From Brachybacterium huguangmaarense (GTDB lineage: Bacteria > Actinomycetota > Actinomycetes > Actinomycetales > Dermabacteraceae), in contig NZ_CP107020.1 of the NCBI RefSeq assembly GCF_025725725.1, positions 1,178,001 to 1,242,000 on the forward strand: DNA of 64,000 bases. The letters are read 5' to 3'. The notes beneath the pieces were generated by a model. That model worked only from the letters and a program-made list of their open reading frames with translations. It ran no database searches and was not told the DNA's origin. The position numbers were made by a program, and so were the translations under genes. How positions within the stretch are numbered: position 1 is the stretch's first letter; every line of letters begins with the position of its first letter. Shown in pieces: positions 11,299 through 25,797 of this stretch.

Positions 11299-12714
11299 AT
11301 GAGCATGCGTCGTCGTCGTCGACCGGTCCCGGTGCCGCAGGACCCCGTCGACCGCTGCGACGAGCACTTCCCGCGCACCCCGCGCGGCCTGCATCGGGCG
11401 GCGGTCGCCTCGGGGGCGATGTGGTACACCGCTCCGTCGCTGCTGTTCATGCTGTTCGTCGTCATCCCGGCCTTCGACGAGCGCAGCCTGCTACGAGGCG
11501 CCGCGATCATCGTGCTCGCCCTCGCCTACAGCGTCCTGTTCCTCTACCTGCCCGGTATCAAGGCCTACGGCCGTCGCCTCGTCTACGCCTACGTCGCGCT
11601 GGGCTGGCTCGTGATCGGCCTGCTCGCGCTCGTCATCGGCTCGAACGTGCTCTACATGGTCATGTTCGTGCTGATCATGCATACGATCGCGCTGCCCTGG
11701 CACGTCGCCCGGGTGGTCGTGGGCCCGATCGCCCTCGTCACGTGCGTGCTCGCGGTGGTCCTCGACCAGCCCACCGCGATCATCCTCGCCGTGGTGGGGG
11801 TGATGATCGCCCTCGGCGTGGGGTACGGCATCCAGCAGGAGGTCCTCTCCGAGCGGCTCGCGCGGGCCGAGCAGCGCAACGCCGTGCTCGCCGTCGCCGC
11901 CGAGCGCGAGCGCATCGGCCGGGACCTGCACGACATCCTCGGGCACTCCCTGACCACGATCACCGTCTCCGCGCAGCTCGCGCGGCGTCTCGTCGACGCC
12001 GATCCCGAGGCGGCGCGGGCCCAGCTCGCCGAGATCGAGCGCATCTCCCGGCAGTCGCTCGCCGACGTGCGGGCGACCGCGAGCGGCATGCAGCAGGTGC
12101 GGGCCGCCACTGAGATCGCCTCGGCGCGCAGCGTGCTCGCGGCCGCCGGCATCGAGGCCGACACCCCCGCCTCGCTCCCGCCGCTGCCCGACGACCGCGC
12201 CGAGCTGCTGGGGTACGTGATCCGCGAGGGCGTGACCAACGTCGTGCGGCATTCCCGCGCCACGCGCTGCACCATCCGTCTCGACACGTGCTCCGCGAGC
12301 GTGGCCGACGACGGCGTGGGCATCCCCGCCGCGCGTCCCCGCACGGGGCTCGCGGGGCTCGAACGGCGGGTCGAGGACGCCGGGGGCAGGCTCACGGTCC
12401 GGTCCGCGGCGGGCGCCGGCACCCTGGTACGGGCCGAGCTCGACGCCGCGGACGGTGAGGCGGGGGCCGCGGGCGTGGAGGACGCGGGTGGTGCGGCGGG
12501 TGCGGGGGATTCGGGCAGTGGGGCGCACGCGGCGGACGCTGGCGGTGCCGAGATCGCGGGCCAGCCGGAGAACACGGTCGGCGCCGAGGGGGCGGGTGTG
12601 GCGGACCGCGGGGACGGCGCGTTGAGTGCTGGACGGCCGCCGAGCGTGCACGGCGCGACCGGCACGGAAAGTGCCATCGAGCACCGCGTCCAGGATGAAG
12701 GAGCACGACCATGA
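11299..12714 (+). CDS. NarL/DesK-type sensor histidine kinase with long C-terminal tail
   Basis: Membrane sensor kinase of 471 residues. Five to six transmembrane helices occupy about 45-175, with no large periplasmic domain, so the signal is probably sensed in the membrane. The HisKA_3 helix carries the phosphorylated H211 in GRDLHDILGHS, and the ATPase domain shows REGVTNVVRHS (N box) and ADDGVG (G1). After about residue 385 comes an unusual ~85-residue Ala/Gly/Asp-rich tail with no domain. It overlaps the response-regulator start by 4 bp (ATGA). It likely responds to the cargo of the ABC transporter upstream. Confidence 0.9.
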   Translation: MSMRRRRRPVPVPQDPVDRCDEHFPRTPRGLHRAAVASGAMWYTAPSLLFMLFVVIPAFDERSLLRGAAIIVLALAYSVLFLYLPGIKAYGRRLVYAYVALGWLVIGLLALVIGSNVLYMVMFVLIMHTIALPWHVARVVVGPIALVTCVLAVVLDQPTAIILAVVGVMIALGVGYGIQQEVLSERLARAEQRNAVLAVAAERERIGRDLHDILGHSLTTITVSAQLARRLVDADPEAARAQLAEIERISRQSLADVRATASGMQQVRAATEIASARSVLAAAGIEADTPASLPPLPDDRAELLGYVIREGVTNVVRHSRATRCTIRLDTCSASVADDGVGIPAARPRTGLAGLERRVEDAGGRLTVRSAAGAGTLVRAELDAADGEAGAAGVEDAGGAAGAGDSGSGAHAADAGGAEIAGQPENTVGAEGAGVADRGDGALSAGRPPSVHGATGTESAIEHRVQDEGARP

Positions 12715-13346
12715 GTCCCGTCCCGCCGATCCGGGTGGCCCTCGCCGACGACCAGGCGATCCTGCGCAGCGGGCTCGCCGCCCTGCTGCGCCTCGAGCGG
12801 GGTCTGGAGGTGGTGGGGGAGGCCGCGACGTGCGCGGACGCTCTCGCCATGGTCGAGCGCGAGCGGCCCGACGTGCTCCTGCTCGACGTGCAGATGCCGA
12901 GCGGCGGGGGCCCGGAGGCGCCGGCCGACGGCCTCGAGGTCGCCGAGCGCCTGCGTGGAGGCAGCACGCGCATCATCGTGCTCACGACGTTCGGACGCGC
13001 GGGCTACCTGCGCCGCACCCTCGAGACGGGCGCGAGCGGGTTCATGGTCAAGGACGCGCCCGTCGAGCAGCTCGTCGATGCGATCCGGCGCGTGCACCAG
13101 GGGCTGCGCGTGGTCGACCCGGAGCTGGCCGCGCAGTCGCTCGCGACCGGCCCCAACCCCCTCACGCCCAAGGAGTCCGAGGTCCTGCGCGCGGCCGCTC
13201 AGGGCGGCTCGACCGCACAGATCGCGGCCCGCGTGTTCCTGTCCGAGGGCACGGTGCGCAACCACATCTCGAACGCCATCGGCAAGCTCGGCGTCACCAA
13301 TCGCGCAGAGGCCGTGCGCGAGGCCACCGACAACGGATGGCTGTAG
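12711..13346 (+). CDS. NarL/DesR-type response regulator
   Basis: Two-domain response regulator of 211 residues. The receiver domain has the acidic pocket ADD (12-14), the phospho-acceptor D59 in LLLDVQMP and a lysine in MVKDAP. A short insert (SGGGPEAPADG) follows the acceptor strand. The C-terminal LuxR/GerE helix-turn-helix covers about 143-205 (LTPKESEVLRAAA onward). Partner of the kinase with which it overlaps by 4 bp; it probably controls this operon, possibly through the palindrome at 9414-9425. Confidence 0.93.
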   Translation: MSPVPPIRVALADDQAILRSGLAALLRLERGLEVVGEAATCADALAMVERERPDVLLLDVQMPSGGGPEAPADGLEVAERLRGGSTRIIVLTTFGRAGYLRRTLETGASGFMVKDAPVEQLVDAIRRVHQGLRVVDPELAAQSLATGPNPLTPKESEVLRAAAQGGSTAQIAARVFLSEGTVRNHISNAIGKLGVTNRAEAVREATDNGWL

Positions 13347-14121: not shown

Positions 14122-15864
14122 ATGTCGACCATCGATCGGGGGACTGCGGGCCGCTCGAGGTCCGCCTCCGCCGCCCTGTCTTCCGCCGCGACCCCCACCT
14201 CTGCTTCCTCTTCTGCTGCTTCCACCTCTGCTTCCTCTTCTGCTGCTTCCACCTCTGCTTCCGTTTCTGCTGCCTCGTCTGCCGCAGCTTCCTCCTCTGC
14301 CACCTCCGCATCTGCCCGCCGCCCCCGTCGGCGCCGGAACATCCGTGCGCGGCGGTCGCTCACGCGGGAGTCCCTGCTCGACGCGGCCCGCGAGCGAGGA
14401 GAGCTCGCCGCCCCCTACCTCGCGACGGATCTCCAGCGGCTCTGGGACCTCGAGGCCTCTCGTTCCCGTGAGATGGCGGCGCGGTTCGCGGCGCTCGCCC
14501 CGGCATGGTGCGATCGTGAGGCCGACGGTGTGGACCCGGACGTGTGCGATGTGCTCGATGCCCAGATCGCGGCGGCGCTCCGCTGCCCGATCACGAGCGT
14601 GCACCACACGGTCAAGGAGGCCCACCGTGCGGTCGAGCTCCTCCCTGGCTGCTTCGCCCGGCTCGAGGCCGGTGACTTCCCGGCCGAGTGGTTCTCCCGA
14701 CTCCTCTGGCGCACGCGGGACCTGTCCGACCACCTGCTCGGTCTCGTCGACGAGACGATCTCCACCTGGGACCTCGGCATGCCTCCGGACCGTTTTCGCC
14801 GCGAGCTGGCCTATCTCCTGTGCTGGGTCCGGACCAGGGAACCGGAGGAGAGCCACGTGGCGCCGGAGGAGCGCCGCGGCGTCACGCTCGACCCCGTGGC
14901 GGACGATGGTGTGTCCCTGGTTCATGTCACCGGCCCCGTGCCCGAGGTGATGAGCTTCGCCAAGCGGCTGGACGCGACCGCTCGCGCGGTGCAGCAGGCC
15001 CAGCGCCACGCCCTCGCCAGCGGTGCGCCCGTTCCCGTGGACCCGCGGGGAGAGGTCTCCCGGTCGCAGACAGCGGCCACGCTCACCCGCATCCGGTACG
15101 ACCTGCTCATGTCCGCGTCGTTCGACACCGGCGGCACAGGTGTTCCCGCCGACCGCTTCCGGATCAACGTGACCGTCCCGTTCCTGACGCTCCAGGGCAG
15201 ATCGTCCGCCCCGGGCATGATCGACGGCGTCGTGCCGATCCCGGCCCAGCAGGCGCGTGTGATCGCCGGCGGGGAGAGCTTCTGGTACCGGGTGATGACC
15301 GACCCCACGAGCGGTCACTTCCTGCCGGCCCCCGCTGAGCGCTACACGCCGCCCGCCCCCATGCTCGAGCATCTGCGGCTGCAGCATCCGGCCTGCTCCC
15401 TGCCCGGCTGCGCGCGCATCGCCGCGTGGGGCGCGGAGTTCGACCACATCGAGGAGTACGACCACGAGCATCCCGAGCGCGGCGGCGCGACCGCGATCGA
15501 CAACCTGCACCCGCTGTGCTGGCAGCACCACCTGCTCAAGACCCTCGGGCTGCTCGACGTGGTGCGCGAATCCTCGGCGGGCGGGTCGCCCCATGCGAGC
15601 ACGTGGTGTCTCGACGACCGCGCGATCGTGCACGCCGAGGACGACCGGGACATGGCCACGCCGCACGTGGTCGCCGAGCTCGAGGAGGCATGGCGGGCCC
15701 ACGCACGGGTCAGAGGCCGAGGTTCCCCGCCGCAGGAGGCGGGCGGCCCTTCCAGACCCCGTGATCCCGACATCGGAGATGCGGGTGACTCCTCCGGTCC
15801 TCGCGGTCTTGGCCCCGCAGATGCCGACGACACCGATGGCAGCCTCGGGCCGCCGCCGTTCTAG
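14122..15864 (+). CDS. DUF222 / HNH endonuclease-motif protein (13E12-type)
   Basis: Protein of 580 residues of the actinobacterial DUF222-HNH (13E12 repeat) family, often present in several copies per genome and of unproven function. Residues 10-70 are a Ser/Ala/Thr low-complexity region made by a 27-bp tandem repeat. DUF222 spans about 85-380. The HNH nuclease motif lies at about 423-475, with CSLPGC, then EFDHIEEY and NLHPLCWQHH supplying the metal and catalytic residues. GAAGGAGGG precedes the ATG at 14122 by about 9 nt. The C-terminal ~60 residues are polar and disordered-looking. Confidence 0.9.
   Translation: MSTIDRGTAGRSRSASAALSSAATPTSASSSAASTSASSSAASTSASVSAASSAAASSSATSASARRPRRRRNIRARRSLTRESLLDAARERGELAAPYLATDLQRLWDLEASRSREMAARFAALAPAWCDREADGVDPDVCDVLDAQIAAALRCPITSVHHTVKEAHRAVELLPGCFARLEAGDFPAEWFSRLLWRTRDLSDHLLGLVDETISTWDLGMPPDRFRRELAYLLCWVRTREPEESHVAPEERRGVTLDPVADDGVSLVHVTGPVPEVMSFAKRLDATARAVQQAQRHALASGAPVPVDPRGEVSRSQTAATLTRIRYDLLMSASFDTGGTGVPADRFRINVTVPFLTLQGRSSAPGMIDGVVPIPAQQARVIAGGESFWYRVMTDPTSGHFLPAPAERYTPPAPMLEHLRLQHPACSLPGCARIAAWGAEFDHIEEYDHEHPERGGATAIDNLHPLCWQHHLLKTLGLLDVVRESSAGGSPHASTWCLDDRAIVHAEDDRDMATPHVVAELEEAWRAHARVRGRGSPPQEAGGPSRPRDPDIGDAGDSSGPRGLGPADADDTDGSLGPPPF
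14197..14277 (+). repeat. 27-bp tandem repeat, 3 copies, coding for Ser/Ala repeats
   Basis: Copies at 14197-14223, 14224-14250 (identical) and 14251-14277 (a few changes). Each encodes nine residues (TSASSSAAS), so copy-number change would keep the frame. Confidence 0.85.
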
Positions 15865-15927
15865 GCTCCACTCGGCCCCGCACGGCGTCTCTCCCTGCGG
15901 CCCCGCGCTGCACCTGCCCCGCGCCTG

Positions 15928-15969
15928 TATCTGCATCTACATCTGCGCCTGCACCTGCACCTGCACCTG
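15928..15969 (+). repeat. Hexamer microsatellite (CACCTG-like)
   Basis: Seven consecutive hexamers of the form NRYCTR; the last three are perfect CACCTG. Intergenic, between the DUF222 gene and the ABC exporter. Confidence 0.6.
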
Positions 15970-16079
15970 CAATGGCACCCACACCGTAGCCGCCCGCCCA
16001 CTGCGCGCCGTGCCCCTCCTCCGCCCATGCCCGGCGTGAATCCCCGGACATGCATGCGGGACGCGCACGCCCGGGCCCC

Positions 16080-16091: not shown

Positions 16092-17969
16092 GTGTCGTCC
16101 CTGCTCCACATCGTCCGCTTCACCCGTTCCCTGTCCCCGCTGTACGCCGCGATCATCATCTGCTCGGTCGTGACCTCGGCCGCCGGCCTCGCCGTCCCCT
16201 TCATCATCGGGCGCGCGACCGACGCCGTGACCGACGCCGTCAGCGGCCGCATCACGGTCGGCGCGGCCACCACCACCGTCGTCGTGCTCGCCGTCGCCCT
16301 GCTGGCCGCCGAGCTGGTCTCCACCGTCGTCTCGAACCTCGGCGGCCGCTACGGCGACATCATGGCCAACCGGATGCGCACCATCCTCTCGGTCCGCTAC
16401 TTCGAGAAGCTCCTGAACCTGCCGCAGCGCTGGTTCGACGTCGAGCTCACCGGCACGATCGTCTCGCGCCTGAACCGCTCGATCACCGAGGTCACCAACT
16501 TCGCCAAGACCTTCTCGAACTCGTTCGCGAGCATGCTCATCACGACCCTCGCGGTGCTCGTCATCTCCGCCTGGTACGCGTGGCCGCTCGCCGCGCTCCT
16601 GCTCGTCATCTTCCCGATCTACATCTGGCTGACCGCGCTCACCTCACGGAAGTGGCAGCGCCTCGAGGGCGAGAAGAACACCGAGGTCGACCTCGCCGGC
16701 GGTCGCTTCGCCGAGGTCATCGGCCAGATCCGCGTCGTCAAGTCCTTCGTCCGCGAACGCAGCGAGCTGGCCCAGTTCGCCCGCCGCTTCCGGGCCACCG
16801 ACGCCCTCACCGCCGAGCAGTCCACGCACTGGCACGTCATGGACATCCTGCGTCGCGGCGCCCTCAACCTGATCTTCTTCGGCATCTACCTGATCATCTT
16901 CATCCGCACCGTGCGCGGCGACTTCACGCTCGGCGACATGGTGCTGCTCATCCAGCTCATGTCGATGGCGCGCCAGCCCGTGCAGAACATGAGCTGGGTG
17001 ATCGACTCCGCCCAGCACGCGATCGCCGGCTCCCGCGACTACTTCCGCGTCATGGAGACCCCCGTCGACGCCCGCCGCACCGTCTCGGTCGACACCGCGA
17101 CCGGCGATGTGGTCGAGCGCGAGGCGGCGACCGGCGAGATCATCGACAACGACGTCCCCGCCGACGCCGATGCCGCCCGCCGCGCCCTCGACCCCGTCCC
17201 GGGCGCTCGCGCGATCGACTTCCGCGACGTCACCTTCGCCTACGAGAAGGGCGAGGACGTCCTGCACGGCATCTCCTTCGACGTCGCGCCCGGCGAGAAG
17301 GTCGCCTTCGTGGGCGAGTCCGGCGGTGGCAAGTCGACCATCGTGAACCTGCTGCTGGGCCTGTTCCCGACGGCGCAGGGCACCATCTCCGTGGCCGGCC
17401 ACGAGATCGCCGACCTCCCCCTCGAGCAGCTCCGCCGCTCGATCGGCGTGGTCTTCCAGGACGCCTCCCTGTTCTCCGGCACGATCGAGGAGAACATCGC
17501 GTACGGCCGCCCCGGCGCGACGCCCGAGCAGATCCGGGCCGCCGCCCGCCGGGCCAACGCGAGCACCTTCATCGAGCGCTTCCCGGCCGGCTACGGCACG
17601 ATCATCGGCGAGCGCGGCCTCCGGCTGTCCGGCGGGCAGCGCCAGCGCATCGCCGTGGCCCGCGCGATCCTCAAGGACGCCCCGATCCTCGTGCTCGACG
17701 AGGCCACGAGCGCCCTGGACACCAAGGCCGAGCGCAACGTGCAGGCCGGGCTCGACGAGCTCATGGCCGGCCGGACCTCGCTCATCATCGCCCACCGCCT
17801 GTCGACCATCGCGGGCGTGGACCGGATCGTCACGCTCGAGGACGGCCGCATCGACGAGATCGGCACTCCCGCCGAGCTCGCCGCCTCGGGCGGCATCTAC
17901 GCCCAGCTGCTCGCGCTGCAGGACTCCGGCTCGAAGAAGGCGCTCGCGAAGTTCGACATCACCGGCTGA
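16092..17969 (+). CDS. ABC exporter, fused permease and ATPase (MsbA/MdlB-like)
   Basis: Half-transporter of 625 residues. The six-helix ABC exporter domain occupies about 1-320, and an acidic linker of ~50 residues precedes the nucleotide-binding domain. Walker A is GESGGGKST (about 407-415), the signature is LRLSGGQRQR (about 509-518) and Walker B is ILVLDEATS (about 533-541), followed by the H-switch in IIAHRLST. It presumably works as a homodimer because no second half-gene is adjacent. The GTG start is used since TACGCT precedes it by 6 nt. Drug, lipid or peptide export are all possible. Confidence 0.92.
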   Translation: MSSLLHIVRFTRSLSPLYAAIIICSVVTSAAGLAVPFIIGRATDAVTDAVSGRITVGAATTTVVVLAVALLAAELVSTVVSNLGGRYGDIMANRMRTILSVRYFEKLLNLPQRWFDVELTGTIVSRLNRSITEVTNFAKTFSNSFASMLITTLAVLVISAWYAWPLAALLLVIFPIYIWLTALTSRKWQRLEGEKNTEVDLAGGRFAEVIGQIRVVKSFVRERSELAQFARRFRATDALTAEQSTHWHVMDILRRGALNLIFFGIYLIIFIRTVRGDFTLGDMVLLIQLMSMARQPVQNMSWVIDSAQHAIAGSRDYFRVMETPVDARRTVSVDTATGDVVEREAATGEIIDNDVPADADAARRALDPVPGARAIDFRDVTFAYEKGEDVLHGISFDVAPGEKVAFVGESGGGKSTIVNLLLGLFPTAQGTISVAGHEIADLPLEQLRRSIGVVFQDASLFSGTIEENIAYGRPGATPEQIRAAARRANASTFIERFPAGYGTIIGERGLRLSGGQRQRIAVARAILKDAPILVLDEATSALDTKAERNVQAGLDELMAGRTSLIIAHRLSTIAGVDRIVTLEDGRIDEIGTPAELAASGGIYAQLLALQDSGSKKALAKFDITG

Positions 17970-20325: not shown

Positions 20326-21261
20326 ATGAAGGTTCTGCTGCCCGACACCATCGAGCTGTCCCCCGTGCTGCCCGCGGGCTGGGAGAGCGCCGTCGTCGAC
20401 GCCCGGGCCGAGATCCCCGCCGAGCACCACGACGCCGACGCCCTCGTGGTCTGGGGCTCGTCGCGCCGCCATCTGGCCTCTGCCGCGCGCGACCTGCCCC
20501 GTCTGCGGCTCGTGCAGTCGCTCGCCGCCGGGGTCGAGGGCATCCTCGCCGCGGGCTTCGGCGACGAGGTCGTGATCGCGAGCGGCACCGGCCTGCACTC
20601 GCGCACCGTGAGCGAGCACGCGCTCGCCCTGATCCTCGCGCTCGTGCGGCGCCTGCCGGAGGCGCTCGCGGCGCAGGACGACCACGAGTGGTCGAGCGAG
20701 ATCGGCGGCATCCAGCCCCTGCACCCCGCGGGCAGGATCACGACGCTGCTCGACGCGAACGTGCTGATCTGGGGCTTCGGGGACATCGGGCAGACCCTCG
20801 CCCCGCTCCTGGCCTCGATGGGCGCGCACGTGCGCGGGGTCGCGCGCAGCGCCGGACGGCGCGCGGGCTTCGAGGTCGTCGAGGAGGACTCCGTGCGCGA
20901 CCTGCTCGGCGAGATCGACATCCTCGTCGACATCCTCCCTGCCAGCGAGGCGACGGCCGGGGTCATCGACGCCGACGTGCTCGCCGCGCTGCCCGACCAC
21001 GCCCTGGTCGTCAACGTCGGCCGCGGCACGACCGTCGACCAGGCGGCCCTGCGCGCCGCGCTCGCCGACGGGACGATCGCGGGCGCCGGGCTCGACGTCA
21101 CCGACCCGGAGCCCCTGCCGGCCGACGATCCTCTGTGGGACGCGCCGCACCTGCTGCTGACCCCGCACGGCGCCGGCGGGCGCCCCGTCGGGGCCGACGA
21201 GCGCATCGTGCACAACCTGCGCGCGCTCGGCGGGGACGGGGAGTTCGACCACCGCGTGTGA
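20326..21261 (+). CDS. D-isomer-specific 2-hydroxyacid dehydrogenase
   Basis: NAD(P)-dependent dehydrogenase of 311 residues that reduces 2-keto acids or oxidises D-2-hydroxy acids. The nucleotide-binding motif is WGFGDIGQ (about 147-154). The catalytic residues are arginine in VNVGRGTTVD, glutamate in DPEPLPADDPLW and histidine in LLTPHGAGG. The last is usually TPH.A/S, so the active site is complete. It is slightly shorter than phosphoglycerate dehydrogenase and has no ACT domain, resembling the glyoxylate/hydroxypyruvate reductase-like group. The start follows TAGCCT by 6 nt. Confidence 0.9.
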   Translation: MKVLLPDTIELSPVLPAGWESAVVDARAEIPAEHHDADALVVWGSSRRHLASAARDLPRLRLVQSLAAGVEGILAAGFGDEVVIASGTGLHSRTVSEHALALILALVRRLPEALAAQDDHEWSSEIGGIQPLHPAGRITTLLDANVLIWGFGDIGQTLAPLLASMGAHVRGVARSAGRRAGFEVVEEDSVRDLLGEIDILVDILPASEATAGVIDADVLAALPDHALVVNVGRGTTVDQAALRAALADGTIAGAGLDVTDPEPLPADDPLWDAPHLLLTPHGAGGRPVGADERIVHNLRALGGDGEFDHRV

Positions 21262-21339
21262 GCCGCCGGCCCGAGCCGACGCAGGGGCTCCTGAGCCGGC
21301 GCGGCCGAGCGAGGCTCTCAGCCCAGAGGGGCGATGCTC

Positions 21340-22005
21340 TCAGTCGTCGTCCTCGGGCACGAGCCCGAGCCGCACCGCTGCGACCGCGACGCCGGTGCGG
21401 GTGTCCGCGTCGAGGCGACGCATGAGCCGGTGCACGCGCGCCTTGACCGCGGACTCGCTCACGCCGAGCCGCTCGGCGATCTGCGCGTTGCTGAGCCCCC
21501 GGACGAGCAGCCGGAGCGCGGCGTGCTCGCGCGGGCTGAGCTTGGGCGCCGTCCTCGGCACCGCCGGCCGATCGGGGGTCGTCGCGGACATCGCGTCGAC
21601 GACGGCCGCACCCACCTCGGGGGAGAAGCTGAAGGTGCCGTCCATCGCGGCGTCGAGCGCGCGGAGGATCTCCTCCGGGCGTGCGTTCTTGCTGAGGTAG
21701 CCCACGGCTCCCGCCCGGAGCACCCCGGCGATCGTGGTGGGGCTGGTCAGGCTGCTCATGGCGACCACGACGGTCTCGGGGCGGGCGTCACGGATCGCGG
21801 CCGTCGCCTCGGCGCCGTCGCCCCGCGGGAGGCGTACGTCCATGAGCACGACGTCCGGCTCCAGCTCGGCCGCCGCGGCGATCGCCTCGGGCGCGTCCTC
21901 GGCCGTGCCCACGACGGTGTAGCGACCGGAGTCCTCGAGGATGCCGGAGACGTAGTAGCGGATGATGGGCTCGTCCTCGACGAGCAGCGTCCGGAAGGGC
22001 TCCAT
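21340..22005 (-). CDS. LuxR/NarL-family response regulator
   Basis: Response regulator of 221 residues. The receiver has VEDE (9-12), the acceptor D56 in LMDVRLPRGDG and the conserved lysine in YLSKNAR. The LuxR-type helix-turn-helix spans about 152-210 (LSPREHAALRLLV, then VSESAVKARVHRLMRRL). The frame is open upstream through the hairpin, but ATG 22005 is chosen because MEPFRTLLVEDEP starts at the receiver strand and AAAGG lies 10 nt before it. A minus-strand TATCCT box (22037-22042) could be its -10. It is divergent from the peptide/kinase unit and is the obvious phosphorylation partner of that kinase. Confidence 0.92.
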   Translation of the reverse strand: MEPFRTLLVEDEPIIRYYVSGILEDSGRYTVVGTAEDAPEAIAAAAELEPDVVLMDVRLPRGDGAEATAAIRDARPETVVVAMSSLTSPTTIAGVLRAGAVGYLSKNARPEEILRALDAAMDGTFSFSPEVGAAVVDAMSATTPDRPAVPRTAPKLSPREHAALRLLVRGLSNAQIAERLGVSESAVKARVHRLMRRLDADTRTGVAVAAVRLGLVPEDDD

Positions 22006-22038
22006 GAGTTCTGTGCCTTTGCGGTTCGGGGGCCTCAG

Positions 22039-22118
22039 GATAGTTGCGCCTGGGCCGTTCCGCCCCGACGCGCCGGATCGCCGCCCGGTGGGGGCGGAAC
22101 GGCCCAGGCGCAACTATC
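22039..22118. repeat. Perfect 28-bp inverted repeat (24-nt loop)
   Basis: Arms 22039-22066 and 22091-22118 are exactly complementary over 28 bp, with loop 22067-22090. Neither side has a T-run, so it is not a standard intrinsic terminator. It lies in the region upstream of both divergent signalling genes and overlaps the likely -10 of the response regulator. Confidence 0.9.
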
Positions 22119-22131
22119 GGCCACCTTCTGG

Positions 22132-22147
22132 CCGACCAACTGGTCGG
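22132..22147. promoter_or_regulatory. 16-bp palindrome CCGACCA-AC-TGGTCGG, candidate operator
   Basis: Seven-base arms CCGACCA and TGGTCGG around AC, about 75 bp upstream of the peptide-gene -10 box. Its position suits activation by the dimeric response regulator. Confidence 0.4.
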
Positions 22148-22219
22148 TGGGGGACGGCGAATACCTCACACAGGCGGTGAACCGGGGCCATCCGCTGCTT
22201 TCGGACACCTCGGCGGCGG

Positions 22220-22225
22220 GATAAT
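22220..22225 (+). promoter_or_regulatory. -10 box GATAAT for the peptide/kinase operon
   Basis: GATAAT is the best consensus -10 seen in the window, with transcription start expected near 22232. No good -35 at 16-18 bp upstream, as in activator-dependent promoters. Confidence 0.5.
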
Positions 22226-22285
22226 GACACCGATTCCGCGGGGAGCAGGGGAGCTCCTCCGCGATCGACGAAGAACGGAAGTCCC

Positions 22286-22465
22286 ATGGCGCACGTCATC
22301 ACGATGCTCACGCTGGTCGTCGCTCTCGCCGCGACGGCGGCGTCCCACGTCCCTGCCGCCGCCCTGATGTCCCAGGACTCCGTACGCCCGGTGATCGCCG
22401 CGACGGCCGATCCCACCGAAGGCCCCGGTGACACGTTCTGCAAGCTCTTCCCCTTCCTGTGCTGA
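22286..22465 (+). CDS. Small secreted peptide precursor, candidate pheromone (59 aa)
   Basis: A 59-codon gene with 53 of 59 codons ending in G or C, so it is coding rather than chance. GGAAG precedes the ATG by 4 nt. The product has a hydrophobic signal-like segment (about 4-28, VITMLTLVVALAATAAS), AxA-type cleavage options (AAA 24-26, ATA 39-41), a short acidic spacer and a C-terminus TFCKLFPFLC ending at the stop codon. C52 and C59 could close an eight-residue hydrophobic ring by a disulfide, or C52 a thiolactone. The next gene, a histidine kinase, begins inside its last codons (GTGCTGA overlap). I recognise no family. It is likely a secreted signal, or else a small bacteriocin or membrane peptide. 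No AgrB-like processing enzyme is nearby. Confidence 0.7.
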   Translation: MAHVITMLTLVVALAATAASHVPAAALMSQDSVRPVIAATADPTEGPGDTFCKLFPFLC

Positions 22466-23688
22466 CCGACGGCGATCCCGGCATGTCGACGTCCCAAGCC
22501 TCCGACTCGTCGCCGCGCCGCGGCGACAGCCGCCTGATCTCCCTCTTCGGGCGGTGGGGGCGCCTCCTGGTCGCCCTCGCCGCCGGGTGGGCGCTCCTGG
22601 GCGGCCTCGACGACGTCCGCCGGGTCTGGCTGTCCGATCGGCCGCTCGACCGTCAGGTCGCCGAGACGATCCTGAACCTCGCGTGGCCCGTCGCGCTGCT
22701 CGTCGCGCTGCGCTGGCCGTGGATCACGCTCGGCATCTACGCGGGCGCGATCGTGATCGGCGTCGAGGCGCACTACTACATCCCGGCGTTCCTCTGCGGG
22801 GTGATCGCCCTGGCGGCGAGCCTCCTGCGCGGTCGCCGGAGCCTGGTGATCGTCGCTCTCGGCGAGACGCTCGCCCTGCTCGTGTGCCTCGTGGTCTTCA
22901 CGGAGACCCCGTTCTCCTTCATCCTGTGGATGTACCTCCCCTTCTTCGCCGTGGTGGCGCTCGGCCTCTGGCTCATCGGCGCCCTCTACCGTCGCCACCA
23001 CGAGGCCGTGACGCACACCGAGCAGCTCGAGCGCGACGTCCGCGCGCTGCGGGCCCACGAGCGCCATCAGCTCGCCCGGGAGCTCCACGACGTCGTCTCC
23101 CGCGAGCTCGTCGCCGTGCAGCCCCACGCCCGGCTGCTGCGGGAGGCCGCGGACGGGGCCGAGCGCGAACGTCAGCTCTCGGCGATCCAGGAGGCGGCGC
23201 GGCGGGCCCAGGACGGCCTCGACAGCCTCGTGATCGTGCTCGAGTCCGAGGACGCGATCGCCCGCTCGGCGCTCACGAGCGCCACGGTCTCCGCGCACGA
23301 GTCGCTCGCGCGATGCGCCGAGCGGCTCGAGGGCCTCGGCCACCACGTGACGACGACCCTGACCACGCAGGTCCCGCCGCACCTCGCGGCGACGGTCGAC
23401 CGCATCCTCGGCGAGGCCACGGCCAACATCGTCGCCCACGGCGGGGGAGCGTCGGCGTGCACGTTCGTCGTGCGCCGTGAGGCCGACTCGCTGCTCATCG
23501 ACGTGACCAACGAGCTGACCGGCACCGGACCCACCCGCACCGCCTCGCTCGGCACCGGCACCGCAGGGCTCAGCGAGCGGGCGACGGCCCTCGGCGGGAG
23601 GCTCACGAGCCGGGCCGAGGGGAGCCTCTGGCGCCTGCACGCCGAGCTCCCGCTCCCGCCCGACGCGGAGGCGTCGGAGCAGGGCTGA
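22459..23688 (+). CDS. Membrane sensor histidine kinase (HisKA_3), coupled to the peptide gene
   Basis: Sensor kinase of 409 residues from GTG 22459, which overlaps the peptide stop by 7 bp; ATG 22483 is the alternative and keeps all domains. Five or six transmembrane helices lie at about 35-177 with only short loops, the arrangement of receptors that bind hydrophobic or peptide ligands in the membrane. H210 in ARELHDVVSRE is the phosphorylation site. The ATPase domain has EATANIVAHGG as N box, but at the G1 position reads DVTNELTGTG instead of DDGxG; the G2-like GTAGLSERATALGG is kept. Its partner regulator is the divergent gene at 21340-22005. Confidence 0.9.
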   Translation: MLTDGDPGMSTSQASDSSPRRGDSRLISLFGRWGRLLVALAAGWALLGGLDDVRRVWLSDRPLDRQVAETILNLAWPVALLVALRWPWITLGIYAGAIVIGVEAHYYIPAFLCGVIALAASLLRGRRSLVIVALGETLALLVCLVVFTETPFSFILWMYLPFFAVVALGLWLIGALYRRHHEAVTHTEQLERDVRALRAHERHQLARELHDVVSRELVAVQPHARLLREAADGAERERQLSAIQEAARRAQDGLDSLVIVLESEDAIARSALTSATVSAHESLARCAERLEGLGHHVTTTLTTQVPPHLAATVDRILGEATANIVAHGGGASACTFVVRREADSLLIDVTNELTGTGPTRTASLGTGTAGLSERATALGGRLTSRAEGSLWRLHAELPLPPDAEASEQG

Positions 23689-23870
23689 GGCCCTCCTGGG
23701 CGCGAGATCGATCACCGGGTGTGATCGGCGACACGGTATGATGCCGCGCGGGTGCCTTCGGCCGGGAATGCGCTCTGACCTGGGACAGCGCCCCGGCCAG
23801 CCGGCCTCTGGGACGCTCGGGAGCGCTGGTGGCCCGCGGGTGCGGATCTGCCTCGGACGAGACCGGTCGC

Positions 23871-23876
23871 TATGGT
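23871..23876 (+). promoter_or_regulatory. -10 box TATGGT for the BCCT gene
   Basis: TATGGT about 50 nt before the GTG at 23926. The leader carries AAAGGA 11 nt before the start. Confidence 0.4.
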
Positions 23877-23925
23877 CGTACCCGTTTGTCCCATCCCTGT
23901 CCCCCGAGAAAGGATCCCCGCCGTT

Positions 23926-25797
23926 GTGAGCAGCACAGACACCACCAAGGACCTCCTCGAGCAGCTCGATGCCTCGCACTCCGCTGCCGCCAAGGCCCAT
24001 CAGAGACGTCCCGGCCTCGACCGGATCGTCTTCTTCGTGGCCGCGGCCGTCGCGATCGCCTTCGTCGTCTGGGGCGTCGTGTCCCCGGCCGGCCTGGGCT
24101 CGGTCGCCGACTCCCTCCTGAACGGCACCATCACGAACTTCGGCTGGCTGTTCGTGGTCGCCGCGAGCGTCTTCACGATCTTCGTGATCGTCATCGCCTT
24201 CAGCCGCTTCGGCGGCATTCCCCTGGGCAAGGACGACGAGGCGCCGCAGTACAAGACGAGCTCGTGGATCGCGATGATGTTCGCGACCGGCATGGGCATC
24301 GGCCTCATCTTCTACGGTGTCGGCGAGCCCCTGTTCTTCTACATGGCCCCGCCGCCCAACTCGGTGGACCCCGAGTCCGCGCGCGCCGCGGCCGTCGCCA
24401 TGGGCCAGACCGCCTTCCACTGGACCCTCTACCCGTGGGCCATGTACGCGATCGTGGGCCTGGGCATCGCCTACGGCTCCTTCCGTCTGGGCCGCTCCCA
24501 GCTCTTCTCCGCCCTGTTCGCGGGCCTGTTCGGCGAGCGCGTCGTCTACGGCGTCGGCGGCAAGATCATCAACATCCTCGCGATCCTCGCGACGCTGTTC
24601 GGCTCCGCCTGCTCGCTGGGCCTCGGCGCCCTGCAGATCGGCGGCGGCATCCAGTCCGCCGGGATCATGGACGAGGTGGGCAGCCCCGTCCTCGTCATCA
24701 TCATCGCGGTCCTGACCGCGTGCTTCGTCGCCTCGGCCGTCTCGGGCATCGAGCGCGGCATCCAGTGGCTGTCGAACATCAACATGGTGCTCGCGGTCCT
24801 GCTGGCGGTCATCGTCTTCATCGGCGGACCGACCCTGTTCATCCTCAACATCATCCCGTCGACGATCGGCGAGTTCATCCGCGACCTCCCGCAGATGGCG
24901 TCCCGGACCGCCGCCAACGGCGACCAGTCGCTGTCCGACTGGCTGGGCACCTGGACGATCTTCTACTGGGCCTGGTGGGTCAGCTGGAGCCCCTTCGTGG
25001 GCCTGTTCATCGCGCGCATCTCGCGCGGGCGCACCATCCGCCAGTTCGTGACCGGCGTGCTGCTCGTGCCCTCGGCGATCTCGATCATCTGGTTCGCGAT
25101 CTTCGGCGGCGGCGCCATCGGCCTGCAGCAGCGGGCCGAGGCCGCGGGCGACAGCGCGAGGATGCTCGCCGACAAGGCCGACAGCATCGACTTCGACCTG
25201 ATCCTGTTCGACCTCCTGCGTGAGCTGCCGGTGCCCTCCTGGGTGCACCTCGTGCTCATGGTGCTCGCGGTCGTGCTCGTCGCGATCTTCTTCGTGACCG
25301 GTGCGGACTCCGCCTCGATCGTCATGGGCGGTCTGTCGGAGAACGGCGCCGAGGATCCCAAGAAGTTCCTCGTGATCTTCTGGGGCGTGGCCACGGGCGC
25401 GGTCGCGGCGGTGATGCTGCTCGCGGGCGGCAGCGACCCGAGCGAGGCGCTCAACGGGCTCAAGAACATCACGATCGTGTCGTCCCTGCCCTTCGTGATC
25501 GTGATGCTCCTGCTGTGCATCTCGCTGTGGAAGGACCTCTCGCGCGACCCGATGGTGCTGCAGAGCCGCCTGGCCCGGCACGTGCTCGTCGAGTCCGTCG
25601 CCGACGCCGTCGAGATCCACGACGGCGAGGTCTTCCGTCTCCACACCGAGACGGGCGAGACGCCCGTGCTCGAGGAGGTCGAGGTGGACGACGAGTCCCG
25701 TCTCCAGCCGGCGGGCGAGGGGCATCGCGCCACCCACCGTGCCGACGTCCCCACGGACGGCGCCGCGCCCGGCGCGGACGCCGACGAGAGCCGCTGA
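23926..25797 (+). CDS. BCCT-family betaine/carnitine/choline transporter
   Basis: Secondary transporter of 623 residues with 12 membrane helices, taking up compatible solutes such as glycine betaine or choline. Family signatures are MFATGMGIGLIFYGVGEPLF and WTIFYWAWWVSWSPFVG, the latter with the tryptophan-rich substrate box, plus FVTGADSASIVMG. The GMGIG glycine stretch in TM3 is typical of Na+-coupled members (BetP/OpuD-like). The start GTG 23926 is preferred over the upstream in-frame ATG at 23872, which lies next to the TATGGT -10 box. An acidic ~60-residue cytoplasmic tail could serve osmosensing. Confidence 0.93.
   Translation: MSSTDTTKDLLEQLDASHSAAAKAHQRRPGLDRIVFFVAAAVAIAFVVWGVVSPAGLGSVADSLLNGTITNFGWLFVVAASVFTIFVIVIAFSRFGGIPLGKDDEAPQYKTSSWIAMMFATGMGIGLIFYGVGEPLFFYMAPPPNSVDPESARAAAVAMGQTAFHWTLYPWAMYAIVGLGIAYGSFRLGRSQLFSALFAGLFGERVVYGVGGKIINILAILATLFGSACSLGLGALQIGGGIQSAGIMDEVGSPVLVIIIAVLTACFVASAVSGIERGIQWLSNINMVLAVLLAVIVFIGGPTLFILNIIPSTIGEFIRDLPQMASRTAANGDQSLSDWLGTWTIFYWAWWVSWSPFVGLFIARISRGRTIRQFVTGVLLVPSAISIIWFAIFGGGAIGLQQRAEAAGDSARMLADKADSIDFDLILFDLLRELPVPSWVHLVLMVLAVVLVAIFFVTGADSASIVMGGLSENGAEDPKKFLVIFWGVATGAVAAVMLLAGGSDPSEALNGLKNITIVSSLPFVIVMLLLCISLWKDLSRDPMVLQSRLARHVLVESVADAVEIHDGEVFRLHTETGETPVLEEVEVDDESRLQPAGEGHRATHRADVPTDGAAPGADADESR

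Follow-up and report, generated by a model that had tools for sequence, protein, structure and literature searches.

The ComQXPA system of Bacillus encodes a precursor of ∼50–70 residues, active at its C-terminus, before a polytopic kinase of the HisKA_3 type, together with a LuxR/NarL-type regulator; the ComX precursor carries a tryptophan for prenylation. Agr systems combine an AgrC-type kinase with a LytTR-type regulator, and in the Com/Blp-type pheromone systems, which have double-glycine leaders and an ABC peptidase, the peptide, kinase and regulator are encoded together. Here we describe a locus of Brachybacterium huguangmaarense (Actinomycetota, Dermabacteraceae) in which a gene for a 59-residue peptide (P0001) is located directly before the gene for a polytopic HisKA_3 sensor kinase (P0002), with a LuxR/NarL-type response regulator gene divergent from both. 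The locus is contained in a 64,000-nucleotide stretch of contig NZ_CP107020.1 (positions 1,178,001 to 1,242,000 of the forward strand; hereafter the window), and coordinates below are those of the window. We consider it probable that the three genes form a self-contained peptide-signalling cassette, a peptide-pheromone two-component system.

By kinase and regulator type, the likest known system appears to be ComX-ComP-ComA. The window likewise encodes a polytopic HisKA_3 kinase (three segments over the hydropathy cut-off), a LuxR-type regulator and a candidate signal at the C-terminus of a precursor, but the window peptide has no tryptophan, carries a cysteine pair and is without a Pfam match, and the regulator gene is divergent. 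No ComQ-like gene recurred in 16 neighbourhoods, whose genes were partly annotated and not run against the ComQ model. With Agr the locus shares a short precursor, a hydrophobic C-terminal candidate ring and a polytopic kinase; it differs in its HisKA_3 kinase, its GerE regulator and the signal-like start of its peptide, and the ring is more likely to be a disulfide. The first-pass annotation of this DNA had noted that no AgrB or ABC peptidase lies nearby, and the AgrB model PF04647 was unmatched in the genome at E≤1, a search without a positive control because 14 control genomes also all fell under the cut-off. By these tests membership in Agr was rejected, AgrB not being found and the kinase and regulator belonging to other families. 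As in the Com/Blp systems, peptide, kinase and regulator are encoded together; in contrast to them, P0001 has no double-glycine leader, the regulator is of LuxR type and no dedicated transporter recurred in the 16 neighbourhoods (ABC ATPase genes, counted irrespective of type and thus possibly including an ABC peptidase, lie in six of the 16). Ordinary NarL-family pairs, represented by the UhpB, LiaS and MadS models, have the same kinase and regulator domain families as the window, but the window scores far under the cut-offs of these models, and a peptide was associated with none of 30 tandem control pairs under the strict rule described below.

The precursor gene and its divergent neighbours

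The peptide gene runs from an ATG at 22286 to a TGA ending at 22465 on the plus strand. It contains 59 codons, 53 of which have G or C as the third base, and a GGAAG ribosome-binding site (22277..22281, plus strand) precedes the ATG by four bases. The product has a hydrophobic, signal-like start, a linker and a Cys-pair tail, TFCKLFPFLC, in which CKLFPFLC (Cys52 to Cys59, codons 22439..22462, plus strand) is the proposed ring; searches of Pfam and NCBIfam with P0001 gave zero family matches. The kinase gene (22459..23688, plus strand, 409 codons) begins with a GTG that shares bases with the last cysteine codon and stop codon of the peptide gene (GTGCTGA), the two frames being different. A later ATG at 22483 is a possible alternative start, and a clear ribosome-binding site of its own was not seen in the sequence at the GTG. 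HisKA_3 (E 8.2e-08) was the only domain recognized in the kinase by Pfam, its polytopic character being read from hydropathy. The regulator, encoded on the minus strand (21340..22005), matched Response_reg (E 9e-24) and GerE (E 1e-12). The peptide gene with its codon usage, GGAAG and tail, the stop codon overlapping the kinase GTG, and the divergent LuxR regulator had all been proposed in the first-pass annotation, and each was confirmed. Its GATAAT promoter stood in part: the hexamer is present (22220..22225, plus strand) as a possible −10 element, but a sigma-70 consensus scan found no promoter-like hexamer pair, and GATAAT has no −35 partner.

Among 37 other genomes of the genus no convincing close orthologue of the peptide was found (best E 0.0356), and among 46 other genomes of the family there were two peptide matches at E≤0.05, both within the genus and both in frames of a length unlike such a peptide gene. 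The best-scoring kinase match within the genus was 32% identical, and a kinase scan of genome contigs returned four distant kinases only. In at least four relatives (G012, G011, G005 and G017) the site is empty, with the flanking genes 170–330 bases apart as against about 2.7 kb in the window; the empty site was seen again on a second check in G012, G011 and G005. Since no close orthologue was found in the genus and relatives have an empty site, the unit appears to behave as a ∼2.4-kb cassette of regulator, peptide and kinase only, gained here or lost there.

Recurrence of the layout across the order

With the window, 76 loci carry the arrangement of divergent regulator, short peptide and kinase, although no regulator was located for L213; only top-ranked search results were read. 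Counted without repeats, the 76 consist of the window, L019, and 13, 29, 5 and 27 loci from four profile searches designated A1, A3, A4 and A5. The linkage of a precursor gene with kinase and regulator across species is that of peptide-pheromone two-component systems. The gene order precursor-kinase-regulator, which the first-pass annotation had taken as the hallmark of such systems, therefore held as to linkage, but the divergent regulator is unlike the classical Agr/Com operon.

Locus L019 (genome G026), from the kinase loci of the genus, has the divergent layout with a 29-residue open reading frame (ORF), MNELVLALHEILPQGPLLDEICRLLKICK, directly before the kinase. Tail patterns were fit, among 2077 short ORFs of the window and the loci collected before the profile searches, only by this ORF and by the window peptide (four overlapping copies); as the patterns had been drawn from these two loci themselves, the result is a lead and not a test. 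Regulator profile A1, made from the window and L019, recovered 30 loci from 396 genomes of the order. A divergent kinase was present at 15 of the 30, and a short peptide ORF preceded the kinase at 14 of these 15, window included, with L096 as the exception. A refined regulator profile, A3, gave 30 loci in 149 genomes of genus g33, and a 13–20-codon ORF occupied the same position in 30/30; 29 of these peptides were found by script and that of L132 by eye, as were the peptides of L183 and L187 in a later search. That search, with kinase profile A4 in the 396 genomes of the order, yielded nine known and eight new loci. All five new loci with a divergent regulator (L179, L181, L183, L187 and L188) encode a peptide with a Cys-pair tail; at the other three (L180, L189 and L191) the regulator is not divergent, L189 having one weak minus-strand match. 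Kinase profile A5 matched 136 of 345 genomes of family f6 at E≤1e-60. In the best 30 loci a Cys-pair tail was present in 30/30, a divergent regulator lay in the flank in 29/30 (not L213), and 30/30 satisfied a simple rule that asks for Lys/Arg at the start, a hydrophobic segment and a site of the AxA type.

In a class-wide regulator search of 394 genomes, regulators outside the order all scored at or below 263 bits; among the loci kept, profile-found kinases were all tandem and in most loci the kinase was not found. Besides L096, L180, L189, L191 and the tandem pairs L073, L082, L084 and L087, rows left out of the 76 were L010 and L035, divergent pairs outside the group with 39 bases between the genes, and L092 and L097, in whose flanks the kinase was not found. 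Apart from the ABC ATPase genes in six of the 16 neighbourhoods, only regulator and kinase recurred broadly; as to a maturase or target among the neighbours, which were not run through the family library, other gene families each occurred in at most two of the 16 regions.

Chance was assessed with a strict rule combining a Shine-Dalgarno-like site and an ORF with a C-x5/6-C tail. None of 300 dinucleotide shuffles of the window intergenic region produced such an ORF, and none was found beside 30 control kinases from tandem pairs. Among 20 homologous loci, all of them loci where a peptide had been seen beforehand, the rule identified 11, as compared with 0.16 expected from the shuffles. Five of the missed peptides have one cysteine or none; in the four others (L083, L101, L183 and L187) the tail is present and the ribosome site was not accepted by the rule.

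In the kinase tree (thinned by 22 g33 and 18 f6 loci, and with one locus entered twice as L183 and L200) the window grouped with L089, from another genus of the same family, and L179, from another family (support 90). In the regulator tree, from which 11 g33 loci were left out, the window belongs to a set of 38 rows (support 95), four of them tandem and the other 34 divergent, out of 36 divergent rows in all.

Tails, linkers and codon differences among the peptides

A C-x5/6-C ending is present in 44 of the 76 peptides, three have one cysteine and 29 have none. In 43 tallied tails (the peptide of L118, which repeats that of L074, is counted in the 44 and left outside this tally) the cysteines are separated by six residues in 32 and by five in 11; a recount by script of the 30 A5 tails gave 27 and 3, respectively. 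Between zero and five residues follow the last cysteine, none in 13 tails and some in 30. Because residues follow the second cysteine in 30/43 tails, a disulfide would fit better than a C-terminal thiolactone, and because 29/76 peptides have no cysteine, a ring is not a general requirement of this kinase class. The peptide-pheromone interpretation of the first-pass annotation is thus favoured by the recurrent layout and the Cys-pair tails, but a ring as a general feature, and a thiolactone as its chemistry, fit poorly.

The 17 precursors of genus g81 start like MKALKMLAVAALVLAPLTAVAAPASA and end in a tail like VATPAGWGTDFSKWFCKNYGVACP, with a linker that varies between them. The two cysteines (C60 and C67), a tryptophan before the pair (W58) and a tyrosine between them (Y63) are kept in 17/17. 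The signal-like start, variable linker and kept C-terminus suggest that the tail would be the released ligand. Single-base codon differences within g81 were synonymous in 2812 of 3449 cases (82%, versus 26% expected), and among 21 peptides of 15 codons from g33 (MTFWQQVGKFFGLVR and the like) in 418 of 836 (versus 21% expected). These tallies, pairwise counts over related sequences, are a strong sign, short of a formal test, of amino-acid-level selection on homologous peptides in two other genera. The peptides of the g33 loci (L117–L146), of which MTFWQQVGKFFGLVR and MWYWLGQLIGIFK are examples, are leaderless, 13–20 residues long and located before divergent kinases in 30/30 loci.

The tails encoded beside the two nearest kinases, CDLIPELC (L089) and CQLYPQLC (L179), resemble the CKLFPFLC of the window, and all three fit C-x-L-[FIY]-P-x-L-C. 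L217, in family f6, encodes CTVFPFMC behind a clear signal peptide, and C-x-[LV]-[FIY]-P-x-[LM]-C is common to L089, L179, L217 and the window. We regard this recurring pattern as the best evidence that the window tail is a functional unit. Within a genus the tails are mostly conserved, as in g81, and between genera they differ, as would be expected of signals diversifying with their receptors; genus g107, which holds both CERWGLFC and CTVFPFMC, is an exception. The first-pass annotation had looked to homologous kinases for a small neighbouring ORF with a conserved signal peptide and a variable or conserved CxxxxxxC tail: such ORFs are indeed present, many of them signal-like at the start and ending in a pair of cysteines, and the octapeptide pattern recurs beside the two nearest kinases. 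Weak touches of relatives' peptides on the ACC_epsilon (0.031), PsbW (0.073), lactococcin 972 (0.06) and protease-inhibitor (0.0013) models, all below cut-off, were set aside as signal-peptide resemblance.

Proposed mechanism, alternatives and other features

In the mechanism that we propose, the 59-residue precursor would be made just before its kinase through the overlapping genes, probably exported by Sec by means of its hydrophobic start, and trimmed so that the region around CKLFPFLC becomes the signal. A Cys52-Cys59 disulfide would most likely close the ring once outside. The polytopic HisKA_3 kinase would sense the peptide by its membrane domain and phosphorylate the divergent LuxR-type regulator, which may act on the intergenic region that the divergent genes share, giving autoinduction, and on further targets. 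On a broader claim we are evenly divided: that the loci represent a widespread, undescribed peptide-signalling class of this actinobacterial order, built on cassettes of three genes that include no dedicated maturation enzyme. The secreted precursor would end in a 7–8-residue ring closed by its cysteines, which a polytopic HisKA_3 kinase would read without an intermediary, and in one genus it would have become a 13–20-residue leaderless peptide.

Several observations weigh against the pheromone interpretation. The signal-like N-terminus noted earlier holds as a hydrophobic start, but as a Sec signal the window copy is weak: neither Lys nor Arg occurs in its n-region, MAHVITM, unlike the starts of six among the first seven signal-like relatives in the comparison (L101 also is without), and it appears to be a poorer signal peptide than that of most relatives. 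The window kinase has three segments over the hydropathy cut-off versus four to six in relatives. The selection counts cover g81 and g33, the window gene being without a close orthologue. The peptides without cysteine, 29 of the 76, are 13–15 residues long with the starts chosen, and the g33 mini-peptides have no signal peptide, which leaves their export unexplained. L096 (genome G113; the same locus as L165 and L182) is a divergent pair of the peptide-kinase group without a short ORF between its genes, and no peptide was found at the tandem pairs L073, L082, L084 and L087, in or near the group. The window regulator is on a very long branch. In the kinase tree the 39 rows of the peptide-kinase group (support 97) do not include the window kinase and its two neighbours, and the family may thus have arisen more than once. 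Finally, we infer for the window locus that the gene is transcribed and its product exported and processed, that the ring forms and is sensed, and that autoregulation and a quorum function follow. As a separate observation, the regulators of L073, L082, L084 and L087 fall among peptide-associated regulators and could mark peptide losses.

The peptide could instead be a small accessory subunit in or at the membrane that tunes its own kinase in the same cell and is not an intercellular signal. MgrB-like peptides are small membrane subunits that tune a kinase in the same cell, and a comparable role would be consistent with the adjoining and overlapping genes, with the leaderless hydrophobic g33 peptides of 13–20 residues, and with the window peptide start lacking Lys or Arg. 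It is less readily reconciled with the signal-like start, AxA-like site and linker before the tail in 30/30 A5 loci, or with the g81 precursors, in which a variable linker joins a conserved start to a conserved tail, a pattern that secretion and trimming fit better; we consider this explanation unlikely. A secreted bacteriocin-like or membrane-active peptide, with kinase and regulator controlling its production or the response to it, would agree with tails that are hydrophobic, Cys-paired or amphipathic-looking and with the one relative that touches the lactococcin 972 model below cut-off (E 0.06). Against this, no immunity or export gene recurred in the 16 neighbourhoods, tails of the loci compared are constant at many positions within a genus, and the peptide, where found, is always beside the kinase, making such a role quite improbable.

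The invariance of the Cys pair in 17/17 g81 peptides, and its presence in 44/76, might also indicate a switch, in which a secreted peptide reports redox, metal or envelope state and the kinase reads its oxidized or reduced form. However, cysteine is absent from 29/76 peptides in this kinase group and the residues between the cysteines differ between genera, and we give this explanation very little weight. Least probable of all is that the short ORF serves kinase expression only, by translational coupling or attenuation, with a product that has no role: the peptide stop does overlap a kinase GTG without a clear ribosome-binding site, but amino-acid-level selection in two genera and a tail pattern common to different families argue for a functional product. 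The self-contained signalling cassette is the interpretation that we prefer. If it is correct, the loci would provide a new and concrete ligand-receptor family with dozens of natural pairs available for synthesis and testing, a peptide sensor needing no maturation gene, and a test case for the joint diversification of kinases and ligands; many of the ligands are probably short enough to escape the usual gene-length cut-offs. No description of such a peptide-kinase family was found in the literature searched, which mostly excluded subscription papers. A 2016 review (PMC4748050) counts reported quorum sensing in 25 of 342 actinobacterial genera and, for Microbacterium, no quorum-sensing evidence, even bioinformatic.

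Between the divergent genes, a repeat scan located an inverted repeat whose 28-base arms match perfectly across a 24-base loop (22039..22118). A 26-base exact arm pattern of this repeat has a single site in the genome and none in 37 other genomes of the genus, and the repeat presents identical sequence outward to both divergent genes. A dyad, CCGACCAACTGGTCGG (22132..22147), is a possible regulator site; no motif is common to all loci, the search for a shared operator having found separate dyads only, with none at L089 and L187. An Rfam search of 21000–24200 gave zero matches. Elsewhere in the window, a second LuxR-type response regulator was recognized by eye at 12711–13346, where it overlaps a kinase-like frame at that frame's end and lies downstream of a frame for an ABC-2-like membrane protein. 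A tandem array of a 27-base unit (14195–14300, 96% matches) lies within a long ORF and encodes a Ser/Ala-rich stretch near the ORF start, and a hexamer tandem repeat of CTGCAC (about 11 copies, 15908–15971) is located shortly upstream of an ABC-transporter-like ORF at 16092.

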